64,000 nt of DNA from Chamaesiphon minutus PCC 6605 (GTDB lineage: Bacteria > Cyanobacteriota > Cyanobacteriia > Cyanobacteriales > Chamaesiphonaceae): contig NC_019697.1 in assembly GCF_000317145.1 (NCBI RefSeq), positions 3,878,385 to 3,942,384 on the forward strand. The letters run 5' to 3'. The position numbers and the translations under genes are program-made. Numbering within the stretch: the first letter of the stretch is position 1; each line of letters begins with the position of its first letter. A model generated the notes under the pieces. That model was not told the origin of the DNA, searched no databases, and saw only the letters and a program-made list of their open reading frames with translations. This document shows, in pieces, positions 1,870 through 38,813 of the stretch.

Positions 1870-1874
1870 AATAA

Positions 1875-2591
1875 ATGAAAAAAATAGTAATATCGCAACC
1901 AATGCTATTTCCATGGATCGGTTTATTTGAGCAAATACGACTTGCAGACTCTTACGTTCATTATGATGATGTTCAATTTTCAAAAGGAAGTTTTGTTAAT
2001 CGAGTTCAAATTAAAACAGTTGATGGCTCTAAATGGCTGACTGTACCTTTAGATGGTATTAAACTAGGTCAAGAAATTAGAGAAGTCCGAATAAACGATC
2101 GCCAAAATTGGCGAGAGTCACATCTTAATTTATTAAAGCAAGTATATGCTAAAGCTCTTTATAAACAAGATATGCTCGATCTTGTTAGTTCAGTTTATAG
2201 TCAGCCAGCCACGACGATTTGCGATCTGAGCATAAATAGTATTTTGGCAATATGTAAATATTTTAATCTTGCTAGATCGGATAAATTTTTATATTCATCA
2301 AGAATTGGTTTGGAAGGTACAAGCTCAGAAAGAGTTTTAGATATTGTTAAATACCTTGATGGCAATATTTATATTACTGGACACGGTGCTAAAAACTACT
2401 TAGATCATTTTTTATTTGAAGAAAGTAATATTAATGTAGAGTATATGGACTACCGCAAAAATACATATCCACAATTACATGGAGAATTTACACCATATGT
2501 ATCCACCTTAGATTTAATTGCTAATGTTGGCACCATAGGAAAAGAATTTATTAATTCAGAAACAATATATTGGAAGGAAGCTGTCAAATGA
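1875..2591 (+). CDS. WbqC family protein
   Basis: 238 aa. The opening IVISQPMLFPWIGLFEQI followed by YDDVQFSKGSF and FVNRVQIK is the characteristic N-terminus of the WbqC-like family, found in O-antigen and other glycan clusters next to aminotransferases and GNAT enzymes. The biochemical role of WbqC is poorly defined; it is usually listed as a sugar-biosynthesis or glycan-modification protein. The stop codon overlaps the next start in an ATGA arrangement (2588-2591), implying translational coupling with the CmcI-like gene. No membrane segment or signal peptide is visible, so it is expected to be cytoplasmic. Confidence 0.85.
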   Translation: MKKIVISQPMLFPWIGLFEQIRLADSYVHYDDVQFSKGSFVNRVQIKTVDGSKWLTVPLDGIKLGQEIREVRINDRQNWRESHLNLLKQVYAKALYKQDMLDLVSSVYSQPATTICDLSINSILAICKYFNLARSDKFLYSSRIGLEGTSSERVLDIVKYLDGNIYITGHGAKNYLDHFLFEESNINVEYMDYRKNTYPQLHGEFTPYVSTLDLIANVGTIGKEFINSETIYWKEAVK

Positions 2592-3325
2592 ACGAAACCA
2601 CTAAATTTCAAGCCGAAGTTGAAAATAACATCCAAAATTTACAAGATGATCCAGATGTTCAAGCTTTGTCGCGGATCTGGTTGCGTGAGATAACTCCGTA
2701 TAAATATGCCTACAATTTTACTTGGATGGGACGACCAATTATTCAGTTCCCACAAGACATGTTGGCAATGCAGGAAATAATTTGGAATCTGAAACCAGAT
2801 TTAATTATTGAAACAGGTATTGCTCATGGCGGCTCGCTAATATTTCATGCCTCAATGTTGGAATTAGTGGGGGAAGATGCGGACGTATTGGGGATAGATA
2901 TTGATATTAGAGAACACAATCGTAGCGAGATTGAAAAACATCCAATGTTTAAGCGTATCACATTGATAGAAGGATCTTCTATCGATGATAAAACTGTTCA
3001 AAAAGTCTTCGACTTCGCTAAAAATAAACAGCGAGTTTTAATAATTTTAGATTCTAATCATACTCACGAACATGTTTTAAATGAGTTAAAAATCTACTCT
3101 AGACTAGTTACAAAAGATAGCTACTTGATTGTCTTTGATACATTAGTAGAAGACATGCCCGATTCACTATCGGGAGATCGACCCTGGGGGAAAGGAAATA
3201 ATCCTAAAACGGCAGTATGGGAATTTCTTAAAAATAACGATCGATTTGAGATTGATAAAAAAATAGAGAGCAAGTTATTAATTACAGTTGCTCCAGATGG
3301 TTATTTGAAATGTATTAAGGATTAA
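2588..3325 (+). CDS. Cephalosporin hydroxylase (CmcI)-like methyltransferase-fold protein
   Basis: 245 aa from ATG 2588, which overlaps the WbqC stop and has GGAAGGA 10-16 bases upstream. An in-frame ATG at 2570 would add six residues but lies deeper in the previous gene. LIIETGIAHGGSLIFHASML (about residues 78-97) is the SAM-binding glycine-rich loop of the CmcI/rhamnosyl O-methyltransferase family, followed by the acidic GIDIDIR. The segment IILDSNHTHEHVLNEL is a family signature. Despite the family name, most members in glycan clusters are probable O-methyltransferases acting on sugars. It ends 2 bases before the DegT aminotransferase. Confidence 0.8.
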   Translation: MNETTKFQAEVENNIQNLQDDPDVQALSRIWLREITPYKYAYNFTWMGRPIIQFPQDMLAMQEIIWNLKPDLIIETGIAHGGSLIFHASMLELVGEDADVLGIDIDIREHNRSEIEKHPMFKRITLIEGSSIDDKTVQKVFDFAKNKQRVLIILDSNHTHEHVLNELKIYSRLVTKDSYLIVFDTLVEDMPDSLSGDRPWGKGNNPKTAVWEFLKNNDRFEIDKKIESKLLITVAPDGYLKCIKD

Positions 3326-3327
3326 CT

Positions 3328-4449
3328 ATGCAATTTATCCCTGTATCTGGCCCTTCAATTACCCAAAAAGAGATAGATTATGTTACTGACGCGGTAACTA
3401 ACGCTTGGTATGGAGATGCAAATATTTATCATGATAAATTCGAGCGAGCATTCGCTAATTATCTAGGTGTTAAATATGCTATTGCCTTACCTTCTTGTAC
3501 CTCAGCTATTCATCTATCATTATTAGCATTAGGGATTACTACTGGAGATGAAGTAATCGTTCCCGACGTAACGTGGATTGCTTCTGCTGCACCTATTAAT
3601 TATGTGGGTGCAACTCCAGTTTTTGCAGATATCGATCCTCAAACTTGGTGTATTTCGGCTGAATCTTTAGAAAGCTATATTACTCCTAAAACTAAAGCGA
3701 TTATTCCAGTTAATTTGTATGGTGGTATGCCAGATATGGATGCAATAATAGCGATCGCCAAGAAGTATAATCTAGCTGTAATTGAAGATGCTGCTGAGTC
3801 GATCGGTTCGGAGTATCATGGGCGCAAAGCTGGTAGTTTTGGGGATACAGGGGTATTTAGTTTTCATGGTTCAAAAACGCTTACCACTGGTGAAGGTGGA
3901 ATGTTAGTAACGGATCGGGAGGATATTTATCAACGAGTCTTATTTTTAAGAGATCATGGGCGTAAGCCTGGAGATAAACTATTTTATAATACTGAAGTTG
4001 GCTATAAATATAAAATGAGCAGTATGCAAGCTGCGCTTGGTTTAGCACAACTAGAGCGGATTGAAGAATTGATCGATCGCAAGCGTCAAATTTTCAGATG
4101 GTATCAGTCTGAATTAGATTGTATTCAGGGTTTAACTCTTAACTATGAACCAGTTAATACGAAGAACACTTATTGGATGGTGACAATAATTATTGATGAT
4201 AAGATGACGATAGAAAAAAATCAACTCATGGATGAATTACGAAAAAAAAACATAGATACTCGTCCATTTTTTCACCCGTTAAGTAGCTTGCTTGCCTATG
4301 AAAAATTAGCAAATACTAAAACAACGGTAGCGAACAATCGTTATAGTTATAAAATTAGTCAGCACGGTATTAATTTACCGTCAGGCATGAATATGGATCG
4401 AGAAAAAATTATTTATATATGTCAAGAGATTAAAAAAATACTAGCTTGA
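3328..4449 (+). CDS. DegT/DnrJ/EryC1/StrS family sugar aminotransferase
   Basis: 373 aa, normal length for PLP-dependent NDP-keto-sugar aminotransferases such as perosamine synthase. The Schiff-base lysine is K183 in FSFHGSKTLTTGEGG, and DAAES (154-158) supplies the aspartate that contacts the PLP ring nitrogen. The N-terminal PSCTSAIHLSLLALG is the cofactor phosphate-binding region. It would transfer an amino group from glutamate to a 4-keto (or 3-keto) nucleotide sugar. Together with the C-methyltransferase and GNAT upstream it points to an N-acetylated, branched deoxy-amino-sugar. It starts 2 bases after the preceding gene, so it is in the same operon. Confidence 0.88.
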   Translation: MQFIPVSGPSITQKEIDYVTDAVTNAWYGDANIYHDKFERAFANYLGVKYAIALPSCTSAIHLSLLALGITTGDEVIVPDVTWIASAAPINYVGATPVFADIDPQTWCISAESLESYITPKTKAIIPVNLYGGMPDMDAIIAIAKKYNLAVIEDAAESIGSEYHGRKAGSFGDTGVFSFHGSKTLTTGEGGMLVTDREDIYQRVLFLRDHGRKPGDKLFYNTEVGYKYKMSSMQAALGLAQLERIEELIDRKRQIFRWYQSELDCIQGLTLNYEPVNTKNTYWMVTIIIDDKMTIEKNQLMDELRKKNIDTRPFFHPLSSLLAYEKLANTKTTVANNRYSYKISQHGINLPSGMNMDREKIIYICQEIKKILA

Positions 4450-4515
4450 TTTTTCATGCTGCATTGTAACTTATCGATCGATTTATAGTAAAATTAGTGC
4501 CTGTGTAATTACTTT

Positions 4516-6969
4516 ATGTGTGTGAAAATTAGTGTAGGTATGCCTGTTTACAACGAGGCAGAAAATATAGCTAGAACGATTGAATCAATCTTAGCTCAAA
4601 ATTATGAGAATTTTGAGCTAATCATTTCTGACAACTATTCTACAGATGGAACAATCGAAATTTGTCAGCATTATGAAAGATTAGATCCGAGAATCAACCT
4701 AATTAGAAACAGTGAAAATATTGGTGCAGTCGGTAATGCAAAACAACTTGTTCAAAGAGCGATAGGTGAATATTTTGTTTGGATCTCTGGGCACGATCTT
4801 TGGCATCCTCAATTTTTATCTAAATCTTTAGAAATATTTGAAGGAGATCGTGATGTAGTTTTATGCTATCCTCGTTCGATCTGGATCGATAGAGACGAAA
4901 AAGATTTAGGTACCATTGGTCGAGGTATTGATACGAGAGGATTAGATTTGATGTCTCGGTTTCAAATGGTTCTTTGGGGGATGGGCTATGGCTGTCCAAT
5001 TTATGGATTGATTCGTTCATCAGCATTGAAACAAACAACATTGGGAACGAAAACAATAGGTCCAGATAATATTTTCTTAAACGAATTATCATTGCTTGGC
5101 ACATTTGCTTATATTGATGAGCCATTACAATATGTTCGTAAATTAGATGACTTTGGTAGTTGGGAGCATTATATTCAGAAAATATTCAACCAAAGTTTAT
5201 CTGAATTCTCAGCGTCAGAGCTATTTTGGACAATGATTTATGAATATCTTAAAATTGTCTATAAACATGTTAATAATTCTCACGACCGTAATATTTTAAT
5301 ATCTTCAGTAGTTAACTGTTTACTGACTAAGCATCAAGGTATTTTATCTGTTCTGACAAGTTCAGAAGTTACAAAGAAAACAGATGACTGGAGCAAAATC
5401 AATAAACTATTAAATAATATTCAGCAATCTGGAAACATAATCGATTCGATCTGGCAACATTATCATTTTGCTTCTTCAGCAAGTAGCTATAATTTGATTG
5501 CGATCGATGGCATATTCTTCCAGCTTTACAGTACAGGAATCGCCCGTGTCTGGAAATCTTTACTAGAAGAGTGGGCGAATACTGAATTTGGAAACCATCT
5601 AGTCGTACTCGATCGAGTAGGTACAGCACCTAAAATTGAAGGCATTAGTTATTATCAAATTCCTGCCTATGATTATAATAACACTGATGCGGATCGCCAA
5701 ATGCTGCAACAAGTATGTAACGATCTAAATGTAGAACTGTTTATATCTACTTATTACACTACACCTCTAGAGACTCCTTCAGTTTTCATGGGATATGATA
5801 TGATTCCTGAAGTCTTGGGTACCGATCTAAATCAACCGATGTGGCAGGAGAAAAGACGTGGGATCGAACACGCATCTGCTTATTTAACTATCTCCGAACA
5901 TACAGCCAAAGATTTACTAGAACTATATCCAGATATCGATCCTAGTACTGTTACCGTTTCTCATTGTGGAGTACAGCCTGTATTTAAAACTAGATCGACT
6001 GAATCGATCGATGAGTTTCGCCATAAGTATGAGATTACAAAACCCTATTTTATTCTTATTGGCTCGGTCTTAGATGGTTACAAAAATGGCATCTTGTTTT
6101 GGCAAGGATTCAGTCAACTCGATCGATCTGATGAGTTTGATATAATTTGCACTGGTGCGGCTGGATTGAATGCTGACGAACTCAAACAATATGCACCGAA
6201 TAGTAGGATTCTACATCTTTGCCTAGATGATGATGAATTGAGTATGGCTTATGCAGGTGCGATCGCGTTAGTATATCCTTCTAAATATGAGGGCTTTGGC
6301 TTGCCGATTGTCGAAGCAATGGCTAGCGGTTGCCCCGTGATTACTTGTCCGAATGCTTCAATTCCCGAAGTTGGTGGTGAGGCAGTTATTTATGTATTCG
6401 ATGATGATATCGATGGGATGGCAGAAGCTCTATGTGAGGTACAAAAGCCGCAGCTAAGAGCCGCTCTGATTGTCGCAGGTTTGGAACAGGCGAAACAGTT
6501 CTCTTGGTCTAAAATGGGAGATATTGTTAAAAATGTTTTAATCGCACAAACTTTAACTCATCTCCCATTAAGCGAGCAAAATCTGATTATTTTCCCCGAT
6601 TGGTCGCAAGATGAAGAAGAGTTAGGTGAAGAGATTGCTAATGTTTGCTATAACTTAGCTCAAAGTTCGGAATTCGATCGACCGACCTTATTAATCGATA
6701 CTACCAATGCTAAAGATATCGAATCTGTAAATGTCTTAATATCAGGTATTGCCATGAATCTGATGATGGCTGTCGATCTCGATATTACCGAACACTTAGA
6801 GATAGCTTTAACTGGAGAACTATCATCGATTCAGTGGGAGGCGTTGTTACCTAAATTGCAGAGCCGGATTAAATTAGAGCTAGAAGATGTTCGATCGCTC
6901 GAATCATCTGGAGCCAGTCTACTAATTGAAATCGATCTAGCTGCATCTCCAGCTCTAGTCTCAGTCTAG
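4516..6969 (+). CDS. Two-domain glycosyltransferase, GT2-GT4 fusion
   Basis: 817 aa. Residues 1 to about 230 are a GT2 (GT-A fold) domain: VGMPVYNEAENIARTIESIL, then SDNYSTDGT and an acidic HDLWHPQF region. After a linker, residues from about 320 are a GT4 (GT-B fold) domain beginning AIDGIFFQLYSTGIARVWKS and carrying the E-x7-E motif in YPSKYEGFGLPIVEAMASG near residue 600. The last 110-120 residues form an extra segment I do not recognise. It probably adds two sugars in sequence to a lipid carrier or to a glycan. It follows the aminotransferase by 66 bases and closes the cluster; a strong hairpin follows. Confidence 0.85.
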   Translation: MCVKISVGMPVYNEAENIARTIESILAQNYENFELIISDNYSTDGTIEICQHYERLDPRINLIRNSENIGAVGNAKQLVQRAIGEYFVWISGHDLWHPQFLSKSLEIFEGDRDVVLCYPRSIWIDRDEKDLGTIGRGIDTRGLDLMSRFQMVLWGMGYGCPIYGLIRSSALKQTTLGTKTIGPDNIFLNELSLLGTFAYIDEPLQYVRKLDDFGSWEHYIQKIFNQSLSEFSASELFWTMIYEYLKIVYKHVNNSHDRNILISSVVNCLLTKHQGILSVLTSSEVTKKTDDWSKINKLLNNIQQSGNIIDSIWQHYHFASSASSYNLIAIDGIFFQLYSTGIARVWKSLLEEWANTEFGNHLVVLDRVGTAPKIEGISYYQIPAYDYNNTDADRQMLQQVCNDLNVELFISTYYTTPLETPSVFMGYDMIPEVLGTDLNQPMWQEKRRGIEHASAYLTISEHTAKDLLELYPDIDPSTVTVSHCGVQPVFKTRSTESIDEFRHKYEITKPYFILIGSVLDGYKNGILFWQGFSQLDRSDEFDIICTGAAGLNADELKQYAPNSRILHLCLDDDELSMAYAGAIALVYPSKYEGFGLPIVEAMASGCPVITCPNASIPEVGGEAVIYVFDDDIDGMAEALCEVQKPQLRAALIVAGLEQAKQFSWSKMGDIVKNVLIAQTLTHLPLSEQNLIIFPDWSQDEEELGEEIANVCYNLAQSSEFDRPTLLIDTTNAKDIESVNVLISGIAMNLMMAVDLDITEHLEIALTGELSSIQWEALLPKLQSRIKLELEDVRSLESSGASLLIEIDLAASPALVSV

Positions 6970-13825: not shown

Positions 13826-15309
13826 CATTAGTGACAAGTTAAGAAGCGATCGCACTTGTCAAGCGGGCTTGAGGCGATGAGTCGAAGAAAAAATTGTCTG
13901 TTCGACTCATAGAATCAGGAAAAGGTGCAATAATTAACTTAACATTAGGTTTACGAACAGTTTTAACAATACCTAAATCTTGATTCTCTGGGGCAGCAAA
14001 ATAGGTGACTGGATTGGCAGCTAAACCTTTATGATGAGCTACATGAAAGTGATAAAGACCTCGATAAATCATCTCTAAAGAAATGCGGTCGAATGGGAGA
14101 GATAATTCATCAGCTACAGCATCACCTAAATCGACTAGAACTGCATAAAACAGCCAAGTCCCCCACATCTGTAATTTAATTCCATTAACTGAACCAGTCC
14201 ATAAATAACTCAACCCGAGCAATCGTTTAACAGTATTAAAAGCCTCTTCAATTCGCCACCGTCTTCCGTACAAATCGGCGACTACATAGGGAGGAAGATT
14301 CAATGGGTCGAGTACACTAGTTAGATAAGAATACCAGACTTTACCCACTTTAATTTCGACTAATCTTACAGTTATATATGGAGTCTTTTTGGTGCCAGAC
14401 CCCATCCGCACTATTCGGTCACGGATACTATAACTATTGCTAAATACTCGCTCTATCTGTAGCGATGCACCTTTTTTTAATCGAGTAATAAAATGAATAT
14501 CTCTGTTAATTAATTCTTGCCAAAATTGGAAATGATAGAAGCCTCGATCCAAGAGCAATAAAGTGCCCGATGTTACTAAATTCAGGATATCTTTCTCAAA
14601 ATTAACATCTGAAGCTTTGGGATTTTCTCTAAACCAGATTTCAATCGGCAATCTCGTCACCAAATCTATGACTACTCCCATTTTTCCCGCTAGTTGTCCG
14701 ATTGGCACATCAGATAAGCTATCTAATTTCTTGAATATCGCTTCCAATGTGGAGCCATCACATGCCCAAATCCGCTCAAATTTTGCTTGAGCAAATTCAA
14801 TGCTTTGTGGCAACAATCGCTGTTTTCTCTGGTGCCACTTCACTCTAAATTCTGGCAGTAATTCCTTAAACACTCTCTCAAATAACTCAGATGGAAAGGT
14901 CAGAAATCTTTGTGCAATCGCCTGTTGACTTACTTGTGTTGGCTCACACCACAAAAATCCTTCTCGCCCTAACATTCGGCTTAGTTCTCTGACTCCTGGC
15001 ACATTCCGCCACAGTAGCGTCAGCACTGCTGCCATCATCAAGGGTAAATTTAACAGCCGATTTCTCAGCCCTAATTGTCGGTAGTAATGACTTTGATTGA
15101 AAATTGCTGGTGTCAATAAAGCCTCTACTTGAGCGGCGATGATCTCATCTTCCACACCTGGTTGGTGGTTCTTTTTGGCGTGGTCGCGGTTACTTCTTCG
15201 GCGGCTGGTCATCAGGCCTCTATTCCCTCAAACTCTTGACTAGAAACAGTTTGGCATCTTTTTATTACCCTTTTGACAAATCTCTGATTTTCTTAACTTG
15301 TCACGAATG
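13826..15309 (-). mobile_element. IS4-family insertion sequence, copy 1 (1,484 bp)
   Basis: Bounded by 20-bp terminal inverted repeats beginning CATTAGTGACAAG on the left and, read inward from the right end, CATTCGTGACAAG; they differ at one position. Flanked by a perfect 9-bp target-site duplication GTCCCACCC at 13817-13825 and 15310-15318. It contains a single transposase gene on the minus strand. The same 1,484-bp element occurs at 35358-36841 in the opposite orientation. Confidence 0.95.
13839..15212 (-). CDS. IS4-family DDE transposase, copy 1
   Basis: 457 aa. The DDE catalytic core is recognisable: an aspartate in RIWACDGSTLEAIF, a second in LLLDRGFYHFQFW, and the IS4-family Y-(2)-R-(3)-E-(6)-K signature in YGRRWRIEEAFNTVKR carrying the catalytic glutamate. 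It performs cut-and-paste transposition of the element that contains it. The predicted protein is identical over its full length to the copy at 35455-36828, indicating recent movement. The frame is intact, so it is probably active. Confidence 0.95.
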   Translation of the reverse strand: MTSRRRSNRDHAKKNHQPGVEDEIIAAQVEALLTPAIFNQSHYYRQLGLRNRLLNLPLMMAAVLTLLWRNVPGVRELSRMLGREGFLWCEPTQVSQQAIAQRFLTFPSELFERVFKELLPEFRVKWHQRKQRLLPQSIEFAQAKFERIWACDGSTLEAIFKKLDSLSDVPIGQLAGKMGVVIDLVTRLPIEIWFRENPKASDVNFEKDILNLVTSGTLLLLDRGFYHFQFWQELINRDIHFITRLKKGASLQIERVFSNSYSIRDRIVRMGSGTKKTPYITVRLVEIKVGKVWYSYLTSVLDPLNLPPYVVADLYGRRWRIEEAFNTVKRLLGLSYLWTGSVNGIKLQMWGTWLFYAVLVDLGDAVADELSLPFDRISLEMIYRGLYHFHVAHHKGLAANPVTYFAAPENQDLGIVKTVRKPNVKLIIAPFPDSMSRTDNFFFDSSPQARLTSAIAS

Positions 15310-16268: not shown

Positions 16269-17168
16269 TTACACTATTTTCAGTTCGCCTGTATTGCCAT
16301 CTAAAATAGCTTCTACACCGACGGGGAGCGCGGCGTTGCAGCCATCGTGCCCGAAGGGGAGATTGGCGACGATCGGAATCTGAAGATCTGTCAGTCGATC
16401 GCGGAGGACTTCTTCTACTGTAAAGCTAGAACTCCCTTCTGGGGGGTCGCATTGGCTGAATCTGCCGATCGCAATTCCGGCAACTCGATGTAATGCGCCA
16501 GTGAGTCGCCAGTGAGTTAACAACCGATCGATCCGATAGGGAGCTTCAGTAACATCTTCGATTGCTAGAATCGTGCCAGCTAAATCTGGTTGATGGAGCG
16601 TTCCCAATAGATGCGTAGCCACAGTGAGATTGCAGGGTAATAACTTGCCCGTCGCTACATTGCTCACCCAACTATCTCCTTGTAGTGGGGGGAGTGGTGC
16701 GCCAGTAACTAACTTAAATAATCGATCGCACGACCATTCCGGCTCATCTGATAAAGTAGTTACTAATGGCCCGTGGACACCACCCGCAAATCCTGCTCGA
16801 TCGAGACTCCATAATAGAGCTGTAATGTCTGAAAAGCCAATCAGCCACTTAGGTCGATCGCTCGGTTTCCATTGCCAATCTTCTAGCAATCGCATCCCAC
16901 CATAACCGCCGCGCGCGCACAAAATCCCGCGACAGTCTGGATCTGCCCACGCAGCCGCCAATCGATCGCGTCGTGTGACATCGCTACCTGCTAAATATCC
17001 CCATGCTTGAGTAACATCTTCCGCCACTTCTACCCGATAACCGCGATCGCGCCAAATTCTAATGCCACGATCGAGTGCTGTTCGCTCTCGTAATCTCCCG
17101 CTGGGAGCGATAACCCTTAATAAATCTCCACTTTTGAGCGGTAAAGGTGTTTGACAAGGTTGAATCAT
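16269..17168 (-). CDS. ldcA: LD-carboxypeptidase (peptidase family S66)
   Basis: 299 aa, normal for LdcA. N-terminal LKSGDLLRVIAPSG, the central ILCARGGYGGMRLL, and IGFSDITALLWSL, where the Ser-Asp-x-Thr box lies near the conserved catalytic region of family S66. GHDGCNAALPVG near the C-terminus carries the catalytic histidine. The enzyme removes the terminal D-alanine from L,D-linked tetrapeptides of murein during peptidoglycan recycling. This fits with the presence of anmK and ddl elsewhere in the window, though they are not linked. Cytoplasmic: no signal peptide. Confidence 0.9.
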   Translation of the reverse strand: MIQPCQTPLPLKSGDLLRVIAPSGRLRERTALDRGIRIWRDRGYRVEVAEDVTQAWGYLAGSDVTRRDRLAAAWADPDCRGILCARGGYGGMRLLEDWQWKPSDRPKWLIGFSDITALLWSLDRAGFAGGVHGPLVTTLSDEPEWSCDRLFKLVTGAPLPPLQGDSWVSNVATGKLLPCNLTVATHLLGTLHQPDLAGTILAIEDVTEAPYRIDRLLTHWRLTGALHRVAGIAIGRFSQCDPPEGSSSFTVEEVLRDRLTDLQIPIVANLPFGHDGCNAALPVGVEAILDGNTGELKIV

Positions 17169-17462: not shown

Positions 17463-19490
17463 ATGACCAACCAACTAGCGGCAAAAATCGTCTGCCAAAA
17501 TCCTGAATGTCAGGCTCCCAACCCAGTGAGTCACAATTTTTGCGCTCATTGTCGTACCGCCATTCCCAAGGTCTACCTATGGACTGTTGGTGAAGATGCC
17601 TCTAGCTTGAAAGTCGGGCAGATGCTGGCAAACAATCGCTATATCGTTGTCAACAGTCGGGTGTTGCTAGACACCAAACCAGGCTGGCAACCAGAAGTAG
17701 TCGAGCGCGTGCCCGAATATATTACTCCTTATCTGCGGCTGATCGGTCATCGCCCCCACGTCCCGCAAGTTTATGGTTCGATTCCCTTAAATCGCTCGGG
17801 ACGACGGACTACTACATTATGGCTGTTGGAAAAAGCACCGATTTATAGTGAGGGATTAGGAGCTGCTTTTGCTGGGAGACTAATGCCAGAACTGATCGAA
17901 AGCTGGAAAACCGCCGGATCGATGCGCCAACTCAATTGGCTGTGGCAAATCGCCAATCTGTGGGACTCGATGCAGGTGGAGGGGGTAAACAAAACTTTAT
18001 TACATCCAGAAGTGCTGCGCGTTGAAGGCGGCCTGTTACGAACGATCGAATTAATACCCAATGCTGAAACACCTCCGAAATTAGCCGAACTGGGCAAACT
18101 CTGGAAAATGTGGCAGAAACAGGCGCGGCTCGGCATCGCCCAAATTCTGGACAAAATTTGTAATGGACTCATCAAAGAAGAAATTACGACCGCTACACAA
18201 CTGATCGCCATGCTAGATGAGGGTTTGCGAACGGTAGGTCAAAAACAATTTCTCAATTGTAATTATCTGACACTCAGCCATACTGGGCCGACTCGCGAGC
18301 AAAATGAAGATGCTTGCTATCCACCCAGCGGCGACCCACTGTATCAGAATACAGGCTACGATCTGAGCCTGGCGATTGTTTGCGACGGCGTGGGCGGCCA
18401 TCAAGGTGGCGAAGTGGCCTCTAATCTGGCAATCGATACGATTCGTCGTCGGGTCGAGAATGTACTTAATAAGCCAGAAAATCGTTATCCCGATAGTATT
18501 ACCATCCAAATTGAGAACTCTACCTGCGTTGCTAACGACCAAATAAGCCTGCGCAATGACAGCGAAAATCGTCAAGAACGCGAGCGAATGGGCACGACGA
18601 TGGTAATGAGTCTAATCTACGGTCACGAGGCTTATATCGCCCATATCGGCGATAGCCGTGTTTATCGGATTACGCGCACTGGCTGCCATCAAATGACATT
18701 AGATGACGACCTGGCAACTAGAGAAGTGCGCCTAAGCGGAGTCTTGTATCGCGAAGCCTTAGGGATGACTAGTTCTGGTTCGTTATTTCAAGCCTTGGGA
18801 ATGAATTCTTCGACCGCGCTCCATCCCAATATCCGCAGGACGATCGTCGATGAGGAATGTATTTTCTTATTGTGTACGGATGGTGTCAGCGATCGCGATC
18901 GAGTCGATCAATATTGGCAAACCGAAATTCTTCCCGTTTTAGAAGGGAAAGTAGATCTAGCGACCGCCTGTCAGCGCACGATCAATATGGCGAATACTCA
19001 CAATGGCCACGACAATGCCACCGTCGCGCTGGTTCATTGTCAAGTCAAGCAGCCAGTCGAAGCCGGACAAAATACCACCATCCAGGATTTTCCAGCCGCT
19101 GCCCCGACCTCGATCCATTCGGATACGCTGCTACTGAGTAGTCCGGAGACTAGTACTGAAGATGCGGCTCGTCCGAGCAGCCGGATTGGCGAGCGAGCCG
19201 CCAACAAACTAGAAAATAAAAAGCCCCTAATCTTAGGGGCAATTGGGTTGTTATCATTAGTCGCGATTGGGGCTGTTAGTTGGTTCTTGTCTCAAAATGC
19301 GCCCAATTTTACAACTCCAGCACCCACCCCCAGTCCGGCAGGTACTGAGGCTCCAACACCTACCCCCAGTCCGGCGGGTACTCAGCCACCGACACCTAGC
19401 TCCAGTCCCACTAGCGCACCGCCGATGGGAGAGCCGCTGCCAGGTAATCCTCGGCCTGCTGGTGCGCCTGACGATCGACCACCAGTATAG
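17463..19490 (+). CDS. Zinc-ribbon / PP2C protein phosphatase with membrane anchor
   Basis: 675 aa. Residues 11-30 are a zinc ribbon (C11, C16, C27, C30). Residues ~45-255 form a region whose layout recalls a degenerate protein-kinase fold (LANNRYIVV, WLLEKAPI, LLHPEVLRVEGGLLRTIEL in place of HRDxKPxN). Residues ~264-525 are a PP2C (PPM) domain: GPTREQNEDACY, VCDGVGGHQGGEVAS, GTTMVMSLI, IGDSRVYRI, CTDGVSDRD and GHDNATVAL, with the metal-binding aspartates in place. A membrane helix follows at about 590-611, then a Pro-rich tail with an approximate 14-residue repeat. It dephosphorylates Ser/Thr-phosphoproteins. Start ATG 17463 has no obvious Shine-Dalgarno. Confidence 0.9.
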   Translation: MTNQLAAKIVCQNPECQAPNPVSHNFCAHCRTAIPKVYLWTVGEDASSLKVGQMLANNRYIVVNSRVLLDTKPGWQPEVVERVPEYITPYLRLIGHRPHVPQVYGSIPLNRSGRRTTTLWLLEKAPIYSEGLGAAFAGRLMPELIESWKTAGSMRQLNWLWQIANLWDSMQVEGVNKTLLHPEVLRVEGGLLRTIELIPNAETPPKLAELGKLWKMWQKQARLGIAQILDKICNGLIKEEITTATQLIAMLDEGLRTVGQKQFLNCNYLTLSHTGPTREQNEDACYPPSGDPLYQNTGYDLSLAIVCDGVGGHQGGEVASNLAIDTIRRRVENVLNKPENRYPDSITIQIENSTCVANDQISLRNDSENRQERERMGTTMVMSLIYGHEAYIAHIGDSRVYRITRTGCHQMTLDDDLATREVRLSGVLYREALGMTSSGSLFQALGMNSSTALHPNIRRTIVDEECIFLLCTDGVSDRDRVDQYWQTEILPVLEGKVDLATACQRTINMANTHNGHDNATVALVHCQVKQPVEAGQNTTIQDFPAAAPTSIHSDTLLLSSPETSTEDAARPSSRIGERAANKLENKKPLILGAIGLLSLVAIGAVSWFLSQNAPNFTTPAPTPSPAGTEAPTPTPSPAGTQPPTPSSSPTSAPPMGEPLPGNPRPAGAPDDRPPV

Positions 19491-19503: not shown

Positions 19504-20598
19504 TTAAGTTTTTAAGAGATCGGCCCCTTCAATTACCTTCGCCGACTCAATTTTGTCATTGGGTTTGAGCTGTCCGAGGACTTCTTGTCCCGAGATCGCG
19601 TAGCCAAATACGGTATAACGACCATCGAGCAGATTGCGGCCAGCCGGGGTTAATTCTGGCTCGAACAGAAAGAAAAAGACTTGAGAAGAGCCGCCATTGG
19701 GGTCGCCTTCCGGACGCGCCATTGCCAAGGCACCATAGGAAGAAAACGGTAAAACAGGTTCTTCGCGGAAGCGTCCGGCATCTTCCATGGTAATTCCATA
19801 CATCGGCTCTTTATCGCCTTTGACCATTACTTCTAGCGGTACGGCTCGATATTTTTTGGTGTCGGGATCGATAAAACCAACTTCATCCCCTGGCGGATCG
19901 CCAATCTGAAGTACGTAATCATTTTCGGCGCGGGTGAAAGCAAGATTGTTATAAAATCCCCGTTGGACGAGATCGACAAAGTTACCAGCCGTGACGGGAG
20001 CATTATAGCCATCGACGATCAGACCGATCTCACCTTTGTTAGTTTTGATGGAGATCGTGGCACGCCCTTTAAGCTGGGGCAAGTTACTATACTCAGCAGG
20101 TACTGTATAGGGGAAATCCGTCACCATCGATGCTTCAATCGAGCCGATTTTACCCAGAGCCTCGGTACGTTTGGCTTGCACCTGCGGTTTGTCTTTGGCT
20201 GCGGTGGCGATCGCGAGTGCCTCTACATCAGTTTGAATATCATCGAGCAGAGTTTGTGCTTCTGCTTGTTTGGGAGCAGGAACGCTTGTGAGAATATCAG
20301 CTTGCTTGTTTTTCAATATCGCCGCCGCTTTTTTGACATCGTTGCTAATCGTGCTCCACTGTTTGCCGCGCAAGTGGTTGGCAATATCTTCCAAGCTATT
20401 TTGCAGTTCCCGCACTGGTTTATTATCGATCGGGAGTGCATATCTCAAAATTGACTGTCCGTCAGTAATTGCGTTTCCAGAAGGTAGCAGAGTAGCCGCA
20501 CTCAACCCCATCGAGAGGCTGATTGACAGCATTGCCACTATGCCAGTCTGCAACCAGTTTCGCCAGCGGCTAAGTATAGAAATTTTGCCCGTTCGCAT
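19504..20598 (-). CDS. Thylakoid-lumen cyclophilin, TLP40/CYP38-like peptidylprolyl isomerase
   Basis: 364 aa. The N-terminus has a basic stretch then a hydrophobic segment (residues ~17-35, MLSISLSMGLSAATLL), a likely export signal. Residues ~50-160 form a helical region typical of TLP40/CYP38, and the C-terminal half is a cyclophilin domain (VTAGNFVDLVQRGFYNNLAF, SSQVFFFLFEPELTP, DGRYTVFGYAISGQEVL). Plant CYP38/TLP40 assists photosystem II assembly and repair in the lumen, and the cyanobacterial homologue is presumed similar. Its stop lies 13 bases from the converging phosphatase gene. Confidence 0.9.
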   Translation of the reverse strand: MRTGKISILSRWRNWLQTGIVAMLSISLSMGLSAATLLPSGNAITDGQSILRYALPIDNKPVRELQNSLEDIANHLRGKQWSTISNDVKKAAAILKNKQADILTSVPAPKQAEAQTLLDDIQTDVEALAIATAAKDKPQVQAKRTEALGKIGSIEASMVTDFPYTVPAEYSNLPQLKGRATISIKTNKGEIGLIVDGYNAPVTAGNFVDLVQRGFYNNLAFTRAENDYVLQIGDPPGDEVGFIDPDTKKYRAVPLEVMVKGDKEPMYGITMEDAGRFREEPVLPFSSYGALAMARPEGDPNGGSSQVFFFLFEPELTPAGRNLLDGRYTVFGYAISGQEVLGQLKPNDKIESAKVIEGADLLKT

Positions 20599-20817: not shown

Positions 20818-21579
20818 CTAAATAGGAACAATACTAAAGAAGTTTTGAGCAGGCTCATCTAGCTTCAAACTCGGCTTTTTAGGTTGATGAGTATAAGCAA
20901 TTAATGCTGTAATCAGATTTAGCATGAAATTATGCAAGCTCCGATGGCGAGAATGGACTAAATAACAAATATTTTTTAACTGGTCATTTACCGTTTCAAT
21001 CAGCGAGCGTTTCCGAAGTGATATTTTGTCATCCATCAAGATGAGCTTGTTTTTCATATTAGATTTTAGTGGCGTAATTAGCTGCAATCCTTTATTTAAT
21101 AATTCTTCAAATAGTTCTTTCTTAATATATCCTTTGTCTCCAAATATTTTTCCTGATATTCCCTGTGTCATTGATGGCAAATGTGTGCGGTCATCGACAT
21201 TGCCAGGTGTGATTTTGCAGCTTAATATCTCTCCGCAATCATTAATAATTAAATGAAGCTTGAATCCAAAGTACCATCCCATAGAACTCTTACTCAGCTT
21301 GGCAGTTTCTTTGAAAACCTTATTTCTTTTAATTCTTTTTGGGTGACAAACTGGAATAGCCGTGCTATCCACGAAACTAATTCCAGTCACCTTACCTTGA
21401 CGAGAGTTGAGATAATAAAGGCAAGCTATTAAAACATTTGGCATCAACTCCACCATTCTATTGTAACTAACCAACTTTGGAAAATAATCAGTTAAGTTTT
21501 GACAAACATTTTTGAGGTAATAATCCTTAAATGTTCGATAGCTTGACTGATGGAAATGAATAGAATTCGATCCAGTCGG
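20818..21579 (-). pseudogene. IS982-family transposase, 5'-truncated remnant
   Basis: The open frame (about 253 codons from a TGA at 21580-21582) lacks the first ~40-60 residues of IS982 transposases and has no proper ATG; the first usable start is TTG at 21474. What remains is well conserved: IHFHQSSYRTFKDYYL, LVSYNRMVELMP, GISFVDSTAIPVCH with the first catalytic Asp, GDKGYIKKELF with the second, and KRSLIETVNDQLKN with the Glu. It therefore carries the DDE core but is probably immobile. No matching terminal inverted repeats or target duplication were recognised around it. Confidence 0.85.
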
Positions 21580-29662: not shown

Positions 29663-31285
29663 TTATTTGAGTTCAAATTTTTGGACGCTACCTAATGAAT
29701 AATCATCGAGCTTGAGGTTCTTAATTGTTTTAGATAATCGTTGATAAACTGCCTCTTTAACCATCAAGCCTTCGCTTTCTTTGCGGAGTCCGACAATAAC
29801 TAAACTTCGCTGAATAGAAGTTCCGGCGGTATCTCGTTGACAATTATCGCGTTTGAATTGACCGAGATTGAGAATTGGATATTCTTTGACTTGAAACAAT
29901 TGTTTGACAATTTGGTCTTGAATTGTTTTGGCGCGACTAAGCGCGCGTAATTCTTCTTCCGCATTAGTTCCCTCGCAAGATGCGGTACCGATCGCGACGA
30001 TGCGATTGGGATTATCCATGATTTTGAAAATACCTTGTTTTTCTAACTCTTGCTTGAGCACAGCAATTGGTAAAGATTGAGTCGATCCCTTTAGTCTTAC
30101 CTGGGTATCAGAAGCTAATTGCCACTCATAGCGATCGCTTAATACTGCCATATTAATCTCTGCTGACTTACCATTACGGTCTTTTGCCGACAAATAAGGA
30201 TAGTACAGGACGTTGCCAATCTTTTGGGGCGTTTGGAGTTTCATCGGCGGTGGCGGTAGCGGACAAGACGTATTGTGTCCGCCGAGTTGGCACTCAAGGA
30301 AATTTTTATTGGCATAAGCGACTAACCCCGTAGAAATAATTGCCAGAATTGCTGTACCGATAATTGCTTTGAGTCGCCAATTATTTACAGGCGGCAAAGC
30401 CAATGCCGCCTCAATACACGAGATCGATTGATGCCGATCTTGGACTTCATTCATTAACATGCGATCGATTGCACTTGCCAATCGATCGCTAATTTGGCGT
30501 TCTTGAGCTACTAATTCTTGTCGCCACGTCCATTTATTACTCATAAAATCGTACAGGCGATCGGGCGTAATATTCGTCAACAAATGGATACAAGTAGCCC
30601 CGAGGGCATAAATATCGCTTGCTGGATAAGCCACCCCCGCCCGAATTTGTTCTGGCGGCGCATAGCCCATCGTCCCTCCAGTCGTACCGCGCGACATTAC
30701 CGTACTATTGAGATGTTTGGACATCCCAAAATCGATTACCACCAATTGGCCATTTTTGCGGCGCATGATGTTTTCCGGCTTGATATCTCGATGAATCACC
30801 CCGCGATCGTGAACGAATTTTAAAATTGGTAAGATATCATCTAATAATTGTAGGATTTTCTCTTCAGAATACGCCCCATTCTCATCCAATTCTTTAAGCA
30901 AATTTTGCCCGTCGATAAATTCTTGAATCAGATAAAATCTCCGCTCTTGTTCTAAATAAGCAAATAGTTGGGGAATCTGGCTAGAATCCGCTCCCAATCT
31001 ATCGAGCTGCGCTCCCTCTCTCTGAAATAATTCGATCGATTTTTCAAAAGCTTCGACGTCATCTAATACCTGCGGTGCCGGGAAAAATTGCTTGATGACG
31101 CAACGTTTTTCTTCGGGCATATCCGTATCTACTGCCAAAAAATTGCGGCTCATCCCACCACTATCGAGAAAACTGATTGCTCGGTAGCGATCCTTGAGCA
31201 GTAACTGGCTACCACAAGCTTTGCAAACTTTTACTTCAGGATGATTTTGAGGCTGAGGACAATTCGGATTGAGGCAATAGCTCAT
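29663..31285 (-). CDS. Zinc-ribbon Ser/Thr protein kinase with OmpA-like extracytoplasmic tail
   Basis: 540 aa. A zinc ribbon (CLNPNCPQPQNHPEVKVC, then KACG) starts the protein. The kinase domain spans ~30-290, with VIKQFF as the ATP-lysine segment, VIHRDIKPENIM catalytic loop, VIDFGMSK metal loop and GTMGYAPPEQ activation segment, so it looks catalytically competent. A membrane helix (residues ~303-325, LKAIIGTAILAIISTGLVAY) is followed by ~210 extracytoplasmic residues resembling a divergent OmpA-type domain (IGTASCEGTNAEEELRALSRAKTI, later IQRSLVIVGL). It probably links an envelope signal to cytoplasmic phosphorylation. The PP2C at 17.5 kb shares the zinc-ribbon layout. Confidence 0.88.
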   Translation of the reverse strand: MSYCLNPNCPQPQNHPEVKVCKACGSQLLLKDRYRAISFLDSGGMSRNFLAVDTDMPEEKRCVIKQFFPAPQVLDDVEAFEKSIELFQREGAQLDRLGADSSQIPQLFAYLEQERRFYLIQEFIDGQNLLKELDENGAYSEEKILQLLDDILPILKFVHDRGVIHRDIKPENIMRRKNGQLVVIDFGMSKHLNSTVMSRGTTGGTMGYAPPEQIRAGVAYPASDIYALGATCIHLLTNITPDRLYDFMSNKWTWRQELVAQERQISDRLASAIDRMLMNEVQDRHQSISCIEAALALPPVNNWRLKAIIGTAILAIISTGLVAYANKNFLECQLGGHNTSCPLPPPPMKLQTPQKIGNVLYYPYLSAKDRNGKSAEINMAVLSDRYEWQLASDTQVRLKGSTQSLPIAVLKQELEKQGIFKIMDNPNRIVAIGTASCEGTNAEEELRALSRAKTIQDQIVKQLFQVKEYPILNLGQFKRDNCQRDTAGTSIQRSLVIVGLRKESEGLMVKEAVYQRLSKTIKNLKLDDYSLGSVQKFELK

Positions 31286-31595
31286 TGTACGGATAGATGA
31301 TGCGGCGATAGATGAATTTTAGCTTAATGCTACATAAAAAGAGTGAGATATTTGTCTCGATCGAGTGATAAAATCGCCGAGTTTAGGCCGCAGTTACTCG
31401 ATCCGCGTGTAGATATTGGCTTTGCTTTGCTTAGATCTGACTAAGCATTATAAACCTGAGTTACATTCGTAACTCGCTATCGGTATATTATATTAAGTGG
31501 GAAATGAGCACCAAACACGAGATAATATATTTGACTCAGTAAATAAAGACAACATTATCTATTTACAGAGCGAGATTTTTACTGACAACTACTAT

Positions 31596-36896: not shown

Positions 36897-38393
36897 CTAT
36901 TTCTTCGAGATCTGTCGCTGAAGACTAGCTACTAGCTTTGGTTTGAGAGTTTCTAACTCTTCTTTGAGCGATCGCTTGCTTTCTTTAATTTGACTGTGGG
37001 TGCTGGGGGTGTTTTGACTTTCTGTCAGCCATTCTTTAAGGAGTTGAGTTTTGCGAGTCGGAATTTTGCCTAAGATCGTGCAGACGCAGTGTTCATCGCC
37101 TTCGAGCGCAAATAGTACCAATCGATAGGTGCTTGTCTGGGTGAGAATTTGGAGTATTTTCTCACCGAGCGGTTTTTTGAGATCGAGATAGCAGGGCAAC
37201 ATCCGATGTTGCTGCTCGTCTTGGTATAGTGTAGTCAGCCACAGTAACATTGGATGGGGCGAACCGACAAATAGAAACTGCGAATGCGGTTTATTATTTT
37301 GGTACTTCTCAATATCGCTACGAGCGAGCATGATCCACATCGTGGCTAATTCTGTTTGCTCGTGCGGAATTAGTTGCGGAAAAACTATTTCTGCTCTAGG
37401 TTTATCTTTAGGCCAAATACTTTGACGACAAATATCGTCAGCAGTCGGTGGTGTTTTTAGCTGTGCGCTAGATTCTTGGCCTTGATTTTTAGTTATTAGT
37501 GGAGCTGATACTTGCGATTGGTTTTGCTCGATTTGTTCGAGTACTTTCAGGACTTCGGTGACGCTGCTCGGTCTTTGAGTCGCTGTTTTTGCCATACATT
37601 TATTGACGATATCCATCAATTGTTGTGGCAAATCTAGTTTAGCTTTGACTTCATTAAATAACTTTGGCGTTTGGTAGTGATGGGATTGAAACCAACCTTC
37701 AAAGGAACTAGCTTTAGGTTTTAACGGTAGTTCTCCCGTCAACATTTGGAACATCATAATTCCCAAACTATAGATATCGGCGCGATTATCTAATGTTTTG
37801 CCATCCATCTGTTCGGGAGAACAATAAGCAGGTGTGCCCATAAATCCAGTGGGTGACTCATCAGATTTAAGTAGCGCGATCCCAAAATCTAGTACTTTTA
37901 CTAGTTCTCCTAGAGTGGCATCTTTGGTGATGATAATATTGCTCGGTTTAATATCGCGATGGACGACTTGGGTAATATTGCCATCGATTTCAATCCCATC
38001 ATGGGCACATTGTAGTCCCAAGCAGATCTGTCGCATAAAGCTAAAAAACTTGGGCAGAGGCATGGGTTTATTCTGCATCACATCTTTGAGACTATCTCCC
38101 TTGAGATATTCCATCACATAGAAGGGCATTTCCTCATCATCAACGCCATAGTCGCGCACTTTGACGATATGGATACTTTTTTCGCCTAATAGCGCGCTAA
38201 CTGTAGCTTCGCGCATAAACCTATCGCGCACCCGTTGGTTCATTTTAGATCGCGATAAAAATTTCACGGCCACAATTACGCCGCCCAAAAGCGTATCCTT
38301 TGCCTGATACACTTGCCCCATAGAGCCTTTCCCCGCTATCTCTAACAGTTGATAGCGTTGTACGAGTAAACGGCCATAAAATTCATCTCTCAC
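36897..38393 (-). CDS. Ser/Thr protein kinase (Hanks type) with cyanobacterial C-terminal domain
   Basis: 498 aa. The kinase domain is at residues ~12-285: glycine loop IAGKGSMGQVYQAKD, VAVKFLSR lysine, catalytic VVHRDIKPSNIII, VLDFGIALL and activation-segment GTPAYCSPEQM. All key residues are kept. A Gln/Ser-rich linker leads to a C-terminal region (~320-470) with VGSPHPMLLWLTTLYQD and HRMLPCYLDL, which recurs in cyanobacterial kinases but has no assigned function. No membrane segment, so it is likely cytoplasmic. It stands alone between IS copy 2 and a 420-base spacer. Confidence 0.9.
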   Translation of the reverse strand: MRDEFYGRLLVQRYQLLEIAGKGSMGQVYQAKDTLLGGVIVAVKFLSRSKMNQRVRDRFMREATVSALLGEKSIHIVKVRDYGVDDEEMPFYVMEYLKGDSLKDVMQNKPMPLPKFFSFMRQICLGLQCAHDGIEIDGNITQVVHRDIKPSNIIITKDATLGELVKVLDFGIALLKSDESPTGFMGTPAYCSPEQMDGKTLDNRADIYSLGIMMFQMLTGELPLKPKASSFEGWFQSHHYQTPKLFNEVKAKLDLPQQLMDIVNKCMAKTATQRPSSVTEVLKVLEQIEQNQSQVSAPLITKNQGQESSAQLKTPPTADDICRQSIWPKDKPRAEIVFPQLIPHEQTELATMWIMLARSDIEKYQNNKPHSQFLFVGSPHPMLLWLTTLYQDEQQHRMLPCYLDLKKPLGEKILQILTQTSTYRLVLFALEGDEHCVCTILGKIPTRKTQLLKEWLTESQNTPSTHSQIKESKRSLKEELETLKPKLVASLQRQISKK

Positions 38394-38813
38394 GCGATCG
38401 ATGCCTCCATGCCGCTCGACAATGAGATTGAGAATAAATTAGCGATGTTAGTAGATGGAAAATAAAAATTGAACATCAAATCAAAAGCAATCGGGTTAAG
38501 CTATAGAGTCTGCGTTAGAAGTGGTCTGGTTTCGTCAATGCTCTGGCTCTAGTGGCAATGCCAATGACAGAGATCGCAATTGGATCTGGCAAATATTTAC
38601 TGTTTGTATATACAGTATCGCTATTTTCAGTGTCGAGCTAACTGGAATTAATCTGAGGCTAGAAGTTTCTATACCTTAACTCTCAAGTGTCTGTTTTGCC
38701 TGCCCCGCGCTGGATGTTTCCGCCACGGCGAGCCGCACCTATCGCGTGTTGACTTTCTTAATAATTTTAAAATGAAGATGAGGATAAACAAGCTTATTTT
38801 CAATATACCCAAT
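38394..38813. other. Intergenic region, 420 bases, nothing recognised
   Basis: Between two minus-strand genes. It should contain the promoter of the kinase gene. A GC-rich island at about 38700-38745 and an AT-rich stretch at 38760-38812 are visible, but no gene, RNA or convincing terminator. Confidence 0.4.

Follow-up and report, generated by a model that had tools for sequence, protein, structure and literature searches.

The nearest solved relatives of the phosphatase domain described here are the tPphA/PphA-type cyanobacterial PP2C proteins (PDB 2j82, 2j86, and 5iti), which consist of the phosphatase domain alone (chains of 240 to 243 residues). Phosphatase and kinase folds are combined in one protein in the PP2C-kinase fusions of Pseudomonas and others, in which, according to the accessible part of the report, PP2C occupies the N-terminal position and the other part is spoken of as a kinase (PMC1262709). 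Seven families of bacterial pseudokinases were distinguished in a 2025 review, the available sections of which call their functions unknown (PMC12599244). For one bacterial pseudokinase without catalytic motifs, i.e., ActPs3 (Rv3910/MviN), which is fused to a peptidoglycan-synthesis membrane protein, the same sections report a non-catalytic recruiting role; they contain no phosphatase fusion, and the word "phosphatase" occurs in them once, among the references (PMC12599244). In Anabaena PCC 7120, PrpJ1 and PrpJ2 are a pair of similar PP2C phosphatases; the excerpts available place PrpJ on the plasma membrane and state that a prpJ (all1731) mutant lacks the major heterocyst glycolipid and N2 fixation under oxic conditions (PMC6161253, PMC4376521). 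Among the open-licence PMC papers listed, no title or abstract beginning described a protein in which a zinc ribbon, a pseudokinase, and a PP2C domain are fused. Neither "pseudokinase" nor "PrpJ" appears in the accessible portion of a review of cyanobacterial phosphorylation (PMC11863333), and the former word is also absent from that of PMC6213207.

We describe a putative fusion of this kind in Chamaesiphon minutus PCC 6605, the genome of which comprises 6.76 Mb in three contigs. The window, i.e., the whole stretch of 64,000 nucleotides that was analyzed, carries it as a single ORF without interruption. Compared with the Pseudomonas fusions, the order of the two domains is reversed and the kinase is apparently dead; compared with Rv3910/MviN, which it resembles in predicted fold, the pseudokinase is joined to a phosphatase. 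The features of the gene are as follows.

17463..19490, + strand: whole gene (675 amino acids plus stop), encoding zinc ribbon, predicted pseudokinase, PP2C domain, hydrophobic helix, and Pro/Thr tail
17493..17555, + strand: four-Cys zinc ribbon, residues 11-31 (C11, C16, C27, C30), from Cys positions and sub-threshold family matches
17565..18257, + strand: predicted pseudokinase domain, residues 35-265 (boundaries approximate), from alignment, fold model, and profile comparison
17757..17777, + strand: HVPQVYG, residues 99-105, putative counterpart of the alphaC-beta4 loop, from the profile alignment
17817..17831, + strand: LWLLE, residues 119-123, putative counterpart of hinge strand beta5, from the profile alignment
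17925..17963, + strand: RQLNWLWQIANLW, residues 155-167, Trp-rich helix, putative counterpart of alphaE, from alignment, model, and profile
17982..18023, + strand: GVNKTLLHPEVLRV, residues 174-187, putative counterpart of the HRDxKPxN catalytic loop with the catalytic residues replaced (low confidence in the second model)
18033..18053, + strand: LLRTIEL, residues 191-197, putative counterpart of the strand ending in DFG, from the profile alignment
18081..18104, + strand: LAELGKLW, residues 207-214, putative counterpart of the alphaF start, leaving no room for an activation segment judging from the spacing
18258..19046, + strand: PP2C phosphatase domain, residues 266-528, from Pfam matches, tPphA alignment, fold match, and motifs
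19227..19289, + strand: hydrophobic, probably transmembrane helix, residues 589-609, from hydropathy
19315..19408, + strand: tandem repeat in the C-terminal tail (36-bp unit, 2.6 copies, 12-residue Pro/Thr unit)

A Pfam scan of the whole protein returned only the PP2C domain and a weak zinc ribbon. The PP2C domain, which an earlier note made from the letters of this DNA had also recognized, scored above the cutoffs of PF13672 (42.2 bits versus 24; E = 8.6e-11) and PF00481 (32.9 bits versus 20.3; E = 7e-8) and was aligned to tPphA (E = 4.4e-21), which among the solved PP2C proteins is nearest in both sequence and fold. The motifs NED, VCDGVGGH, MGTT, GDSR, CTDGVSD, and GHDN were located, with their acidic residues invariant in 11 rows; we presume that the metal-binding residues are among them. 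The zinc ribbon claimed in the note is present as two Cys pairs (C11/C16 and C27/C30), all four invariant in an 11-row alignment, and its family matches were below the cutoffs (NCBIfam 4Cys_prefix_kin, E = 0.0015 and 18.8 bits versus a cutoff of 24; Pfam DZR, double zinc ribbon, E = 0.039). The membrane helix of the note corresponds to the hydrophobic helix at residues 589-609, where the best 19-residue hydropathy was 2.24. Pro/Thr repeats do follow this helix, as the note had it, with a unit of 12 residues instead of the 14 that it gave. From these matches, the protein is most likely a putative membrane-anchored PP2C Ser/Thr phosphatase.

The seven close relatives of the gene (80 to 84% identity) come from six metagenome-assembled genomes labelled Chamaesiphon and one "uncultured cyanobacterium." Residues 529-675 are loosely conserved among them, with 48 to 61% identity across 93 to 110 of the 147 residues in seven comparisons. 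Tails are short or repetitive in the Chamaesiphon relatives; in other genomes, the outer tail of window-type proteins (i.e., those of the same form as the protein in the window) is much longer and extends up to 245 residues past the helix. The C-terminal part of one protein (L008, residues 673-710, frame 1872-4229) weakly matched a bacterial SH3 domain (E = 0.065). Four window-type proteins (L125, L126, L169, and L183) showed no simple Cys-pair pattern within their first 90 residues and may have lost the zinc ribbon and retained the pseudokinase.

Described cyanobacterial proteins were also considered as possible identities. HltA, a Group II PP2C-family phosphatase that the available part of its description reports throughout cyanobacteria, with a GAF domain and a SpoIIE-type PP2C domain (PMC9430166), was rejected because the Pfam scan gave no GAF or SpoIIE match. 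The CP1 pseudokinases of cyanobacteria and proteobacteria, which are linked to a COG3899 domain and have no transmembrane region according to the sections of the review at hand (PMC12599244), were rejected since the Pfam scan gave no such domain and the protein has a hydrophobic helix. The GLW pseudokinases, in which, by the same sections, a GLW motif replaces HRD (PMC12599244), were rejected as well: the HRD counterpart here is NKTLLHPEVL, and no GLW occurs there in 32 rows. As with the PrpJ pair of Anabaena, two paralogs with a hydrophobic helix are encoded in the C. minutus genome, and our guess is that PrpJ, PrpJ1, and PrpJ2 belong to the same family.

The genome carries three paralogous forms of the protein. 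The second paralog (L015) is 36% identical to the window protein over residues 34-530 and has no ribbon, and the third copy (L016) scored 711 bits against the NCBIfam model NF011149 (PRK14559), for which the window protein remained below the cutoff (234 versus 374 bits). PRK14559, a family named "serine/threonine phosphatase" with no mention of a kinase-like domain, resembles the window protein in having one or more zinc ribbons, a homologous middle domain (hhalign probability of 98.7; E = 2.5e-16), and a PP2C domain in the same order. It differs in having two ribbons instead of one, no helix after PP2C, and, at most of the loci compared, an adjoining kinase gene. All 36 proteins examined from the window type and the second paralog have the hydrophobic helix C-terminal of PP2C; none of 24 PRK14559-type proteins has it. 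In a PP2C tree of 69 rows, 65 domain-bearing proteins were split from four PP2C proteins without the domain (98/95); support was 100/100 for the PRK14559 type, 100/99 for the window type plus second paralog, and weak (91/58) for the window type alone. The bootstrap of this tree had not settled, two of the PP2C-only rows were long-branched, and four rows in which the cutting motif could not be located (L139, L146, L010, and L012) were excluded. The simplest reading of the tree would be one old fusion followed by duplications.

Gene neighborhoods were compared at loci hand-picked across families (24 PRK14559-type and 32 window-type loci), and a kinase neighbor was defined by one HMM at an E value of 1e-4 in frames of at least 80 amino acids within about 4 to 6 kb on each side. 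A same-strand kinase gene lies downstream in 18 of the 24 PRK14559-type loci, at open-frame gaps ranging from -15 to 512 bp, and is missing from the remaining six: L140 (from the C. minutus genome), L161, L162, L163, L165, and L166. No kinase neighbor was found at the 32 window-type loci or at four second-paralog loci. Two partner kinases were scanned; in both, the FHA and kinase domains exceeded the cutoffs and the zinc-ribbon match was weak (in one of them, E = 2.6e-4 for the 4-Cys prefix). Zinc-ribbon Cys residues C166, C178, and C181, as well as K229, HRD (323-325), N330, and DFG (344-346), are invariant in all 18 partner kinases. C. minutus encodes a 65%-identical kinase elsewhere in its genome (query residues 162-448). 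Of four loci from genomes outside the class, one (L135) carries a zinc-ribbon kinase gene immediately upstream of, and in the same orientation as, the gene for its zinc ribbon-pseudokinase-PP2C protein; no kinase neighbor was found at the other three, two of which are on short contigs (6.2 and 3.9 kb). These sister-family neighborhoods suggest a live zinc-ribbon kinase as a putative partner. Because the zinc-ribbon-kinase unit occurs live beside the sister phosphatase and, by prediction, dead inside it, we infer that the pseudokinase descends from such a kinase; direct profile comparison with the partner kinases was weak and is no more than suggestive of this descent (E = 0.0014). The corresponding comparisons for the window-type profile (E = 0.043, 15 columns) and the PRK14559-type profile (E = 0.071) were too weak to count, as was an hhalign comparison of the window-type profile alone with kinases.

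Around the gene itself, the convergent frame 19504-20598 (-), presumably a peptidyl-prolyl isomerase of the thylakoid-lumen CYP38/TLP40 kind, was dropped as a functional partner because it stands beside the phosphatase in close relatives only. Across 22 loci, this frame and frame 16269-17168 (-) were kept in six and seven, respectively, of L001-L007 and in none of L008-L010 and L123-L134. Frames 13839-15212 (-) and 20818-21474 (-), on either side of the gene, are what we take to be transposases. Two Ser/Thr kinase frames, 29666-31318 (-) and 36900-38438 (-), lie about 10 and 17 kb downstream of the phosphatase, and Pkinase matches number 39 across the genome.

We give slightly better than even credence to the reading that the protein is a membrane-anchored PP2C phosphatase carrying an N-terminal zinc ribbon and a dead kinase of zinc-ribbon-kinase descent, which would serve in docking or regulation without catalysis and in opposition to kinase signalling. 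The ancestor of the dead kinase would have been a zinc-ribbon Ser/Thr kinase; its fold would have been kept, and the strand that binds ATP, the residues of the catalytic loop, and the activation segment would have been lost, along with ATP binding. The module would then bring the phosphatase to its partners, the likeliest of which are zinc-ribbon Ser/Thr kinases or the substrates of these kinases, and the phosphatase would thereby oppose kinase signalling at the membrane. The recruitment of phosphorylated targets, as proposed in the note, would be one hypothetical version of such a role; a live-kinase partner is compatible with it but is a different claim.

In the main rival reading, which we regard as rather unlikely, the pseudokinase acts mainly within its own molecule, as a switch that turns the attached PP2C domain on or off instead of docking partners. 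The switch would respond to a bound ligand, to the metal or redox state of the ribbon, or to signals passed on by the periplasmic tail; the window-type proteins do combine a hydrophobic helix with a variable outer tail. In a second, longer model (residues 8-533; pLDDT of 74.6), hardly any linker separates the last pseudokinase helix (237-253) from the first PP2C strand (256-266), which together with a pTM of 0.77 suggests a fixed arrangement. However, pTM alone does not demonstrate a regulatory interface, and the sister-family operon with a live kinase fits docking at least equally well.

The middle region is predicted to have a protein-kinase fold. AlphaFold2 modeling of this region from 11 sequences gave a pLDDT of 74.9 and a pTM of 0.59 (pLDDT of 55.7 to 65.8 in the other four models). 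The top Foldseek matches in the PDB were PknG (E = 4.7e-4), the kinase-homology domain of Rv3910 (2.0e-3), and the PAN3 pseudokinase (3.1e-3); the best 50 rows comprised 49 named kinases or pseudokinases and WbdD, which we take to carry a kinase domain. These scores were modest, with just two hits at an E value of ≤0.001 and TM-scores of 0.26 to 0.51. The best match, the kinase domain of PknG, differs in belonging to an active kinase without PP2C; in PknG, a metal-binding rubredoxin part precedes the kinase. VIA-align scored YabT at Z = 10.8 (rmsd of 4.1 over 190 residues) and Rv3910 at Z = 9.6 (3.6 over 181 residues), and its best 50 rows were all kinases or the Rv3910 pseudokinase. Of Foldseek's top 1,000 chains, 998 scored 5 or more; the lack of other folds says little here since VIA-align re-aligns Foldseek's own list. 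The longer model placed residues 173-183, the stretch of the catalytic loop, below a pLDDT of 50 and left the beta7/beta8 pair unformed. Thus, the fold comparison that the note had proposed returned kinase folds in all 50 best rows both times, and not an unrelated fold.

The sequence libraries were less telling. No match to any Pfam kinase family was found among the 32 rows or 26 rows scanned, and sequence searches of the PDB gave no convincing kinase: LanKC kinases reached E = 0.24 at best and were outranked by a repeat-protein hit without a passing stretch (E = 2.7e-10). The case for a kinase therefore draws on the predicted fold and on hhalign comparison with a widened family, for which we built a 26-row profile from the window type, the second paralog, the PRK14559 type, and the four proteins from outside the class. 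Against 19 kinases chosen from the 39 matches in the same genome, this profile gave a probability of 67.2 (E = 5.1e-5) over 98 columns, running from alphaC to the DFG strand. In this register, PQVYG aligns with the alphaC-beta4 loop, LLE with the hinge strand, the Trp-rich helix with alphaE, SLLxPxxLRV with HRDIKPxNI, and the next strand with the one ending in DFG. The score was 38.9, compared with 15.8 for reversed kinases and a maximum of 20.0 among column shuffles, 0 of 200 of which reached it. The PRK14559-type profile alone scored 25.5 (0 of 200 shuffles; best, 21.0), and the window-type profile alone scored 21.4, a value reached by 6 of 200 shuffles and not clearly above chance.

The modest TM-scores, the absence of a kinase from the sequence library results, and the near-shuffle score of the window-type profile would all fit a middle region that is unrelated to kinases and owes its likeness to a common arrangement and a coincidental order of motifs. 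We consider this improbable: the widened profile beat 200 of 200 shuffles by a wide margin and in the expected register, and the listed fold matches were all kinase folds, although VIA-align only re-aligned Foldseek's list. Fold comparison and controlled profile-profile comparison hence support the note's proposal of a degenerate kinase module fused to PP2C.

The region spans about 230 residues and follows the kinase order of motifs, and, as the note had read it, no conserved ATP-lysine (beta3 Lys), HRD, or DFG is present in the 32-row alignment of relatives. Invariant in that alignment (in its own numbering) are R26-Y27, D37, P68-Q69, L89-E90, W126, W128, Q129, L177, and W181. Two strands, not three, precede alphaC in the AlphaFold2 model, and the spacing from the DFG position to the start of alphaF is 9 residues, compared with about 33 in the partner kinases; from these counts, the beta3 Lys strand and the activation segment appear to be missing. 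Some "pseudokinases" have turned out to be enzymatically active, and the strong conservation of the domain, invariant acidic and aromatic residues included, would accord with an unusual enzymatic activity of its own. Such an activity is nevertheless highly improbable in our judgment, given that Lys, HRD, and DFG have no conserved counterpart and that the usual nucleotide site seems to be absent from the model, with two strands instead of three before alphaC.

Compared with the seven close relatives, the middle domain showed 81 to 86% identity, with 231 of 231 residues aligned and no gap. In seven comparisons, dN/dS was 0.05 to 0.08 for the middle domain and 0.02 to 0.05 for PP2C, values that are rough because dS exceeded 1 for both domains. 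The middle domain is under purifying selection. The taxon distribution, which the note had suggested examining, was broad: the domain was found in 305 of 388 cyanobacterial genomes of the class and in 136 of 160 genera, often twice per genome. A phylum-wide search matched 103 of 292 genomes, four of the 103 being listed as outside the class; the four outside-class proteins have the identical order of parts, and three (L135, L136, and L137) retain a Gly-loop-like stretch. Rows and loci were hand-picked rather than random (32 rows in the alignment of relatives; 19 of the 30 loci given for 90 matching genomes). That the domain is a decaying relic without function, as the loss of all catalytic motifs and a stop-ridden remnant in one genome might imply, is scarcely credible, since the selection data, the gap-free alignment, and its retention in most of the genomes contradict it.

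That remnant (L117; G384:C1:348891-349280), a pseudokinase-domain sequence interrupted by ten stop codons, comes from a genome belonging to the same order and indicates that the gene is being lost there. A window-type gene on a contig labelled Chloroflexaceae (L009, 5001-6563) was placed among cyanobacterial ones in the tree, and the contig is probably mis-binned. In a Ktedonobacterales locus (L012), frame 3504-5780 (+) encodes a PP2C protein in which two stretches, apart from each other, resemble zinc ribbons. Ahead of PP2C it has the short stretch RYRVEAII, which resembles a kinase start, and the protein possibly contains another stripped kinase.

By prediction, then, an otherwise ordinary phosphatase, a known enzyme, is joined here to an overlooked pseudokinase of what looks like a new family. 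To our knowledge, little has been established about how bacterial PP2C phosphatases find their targets. We tentatively entertain a wider possibility, which we would not yet count as probable: an undescribed pseudokinase family, old enough to reach outside the class, in which the dead half would bind a live zinc-ribbon kinase, or the substrates of that kinase, by way of a kinase-pseudokinase interface and would thereby make kinase and phosphatase a single working unit in most cyanobacteria. The comparison supplies a likely identity for a domain left blank in the family libraries searched. In most of the cyanobacteria examined, this putative pseudokinase is covalently tied to a phosphatase, and one form adjoins an intact zinc-ribbon kinase gene, which offers a concrete, testable pair of dead and live kinases in laboratory cyanobacteria.
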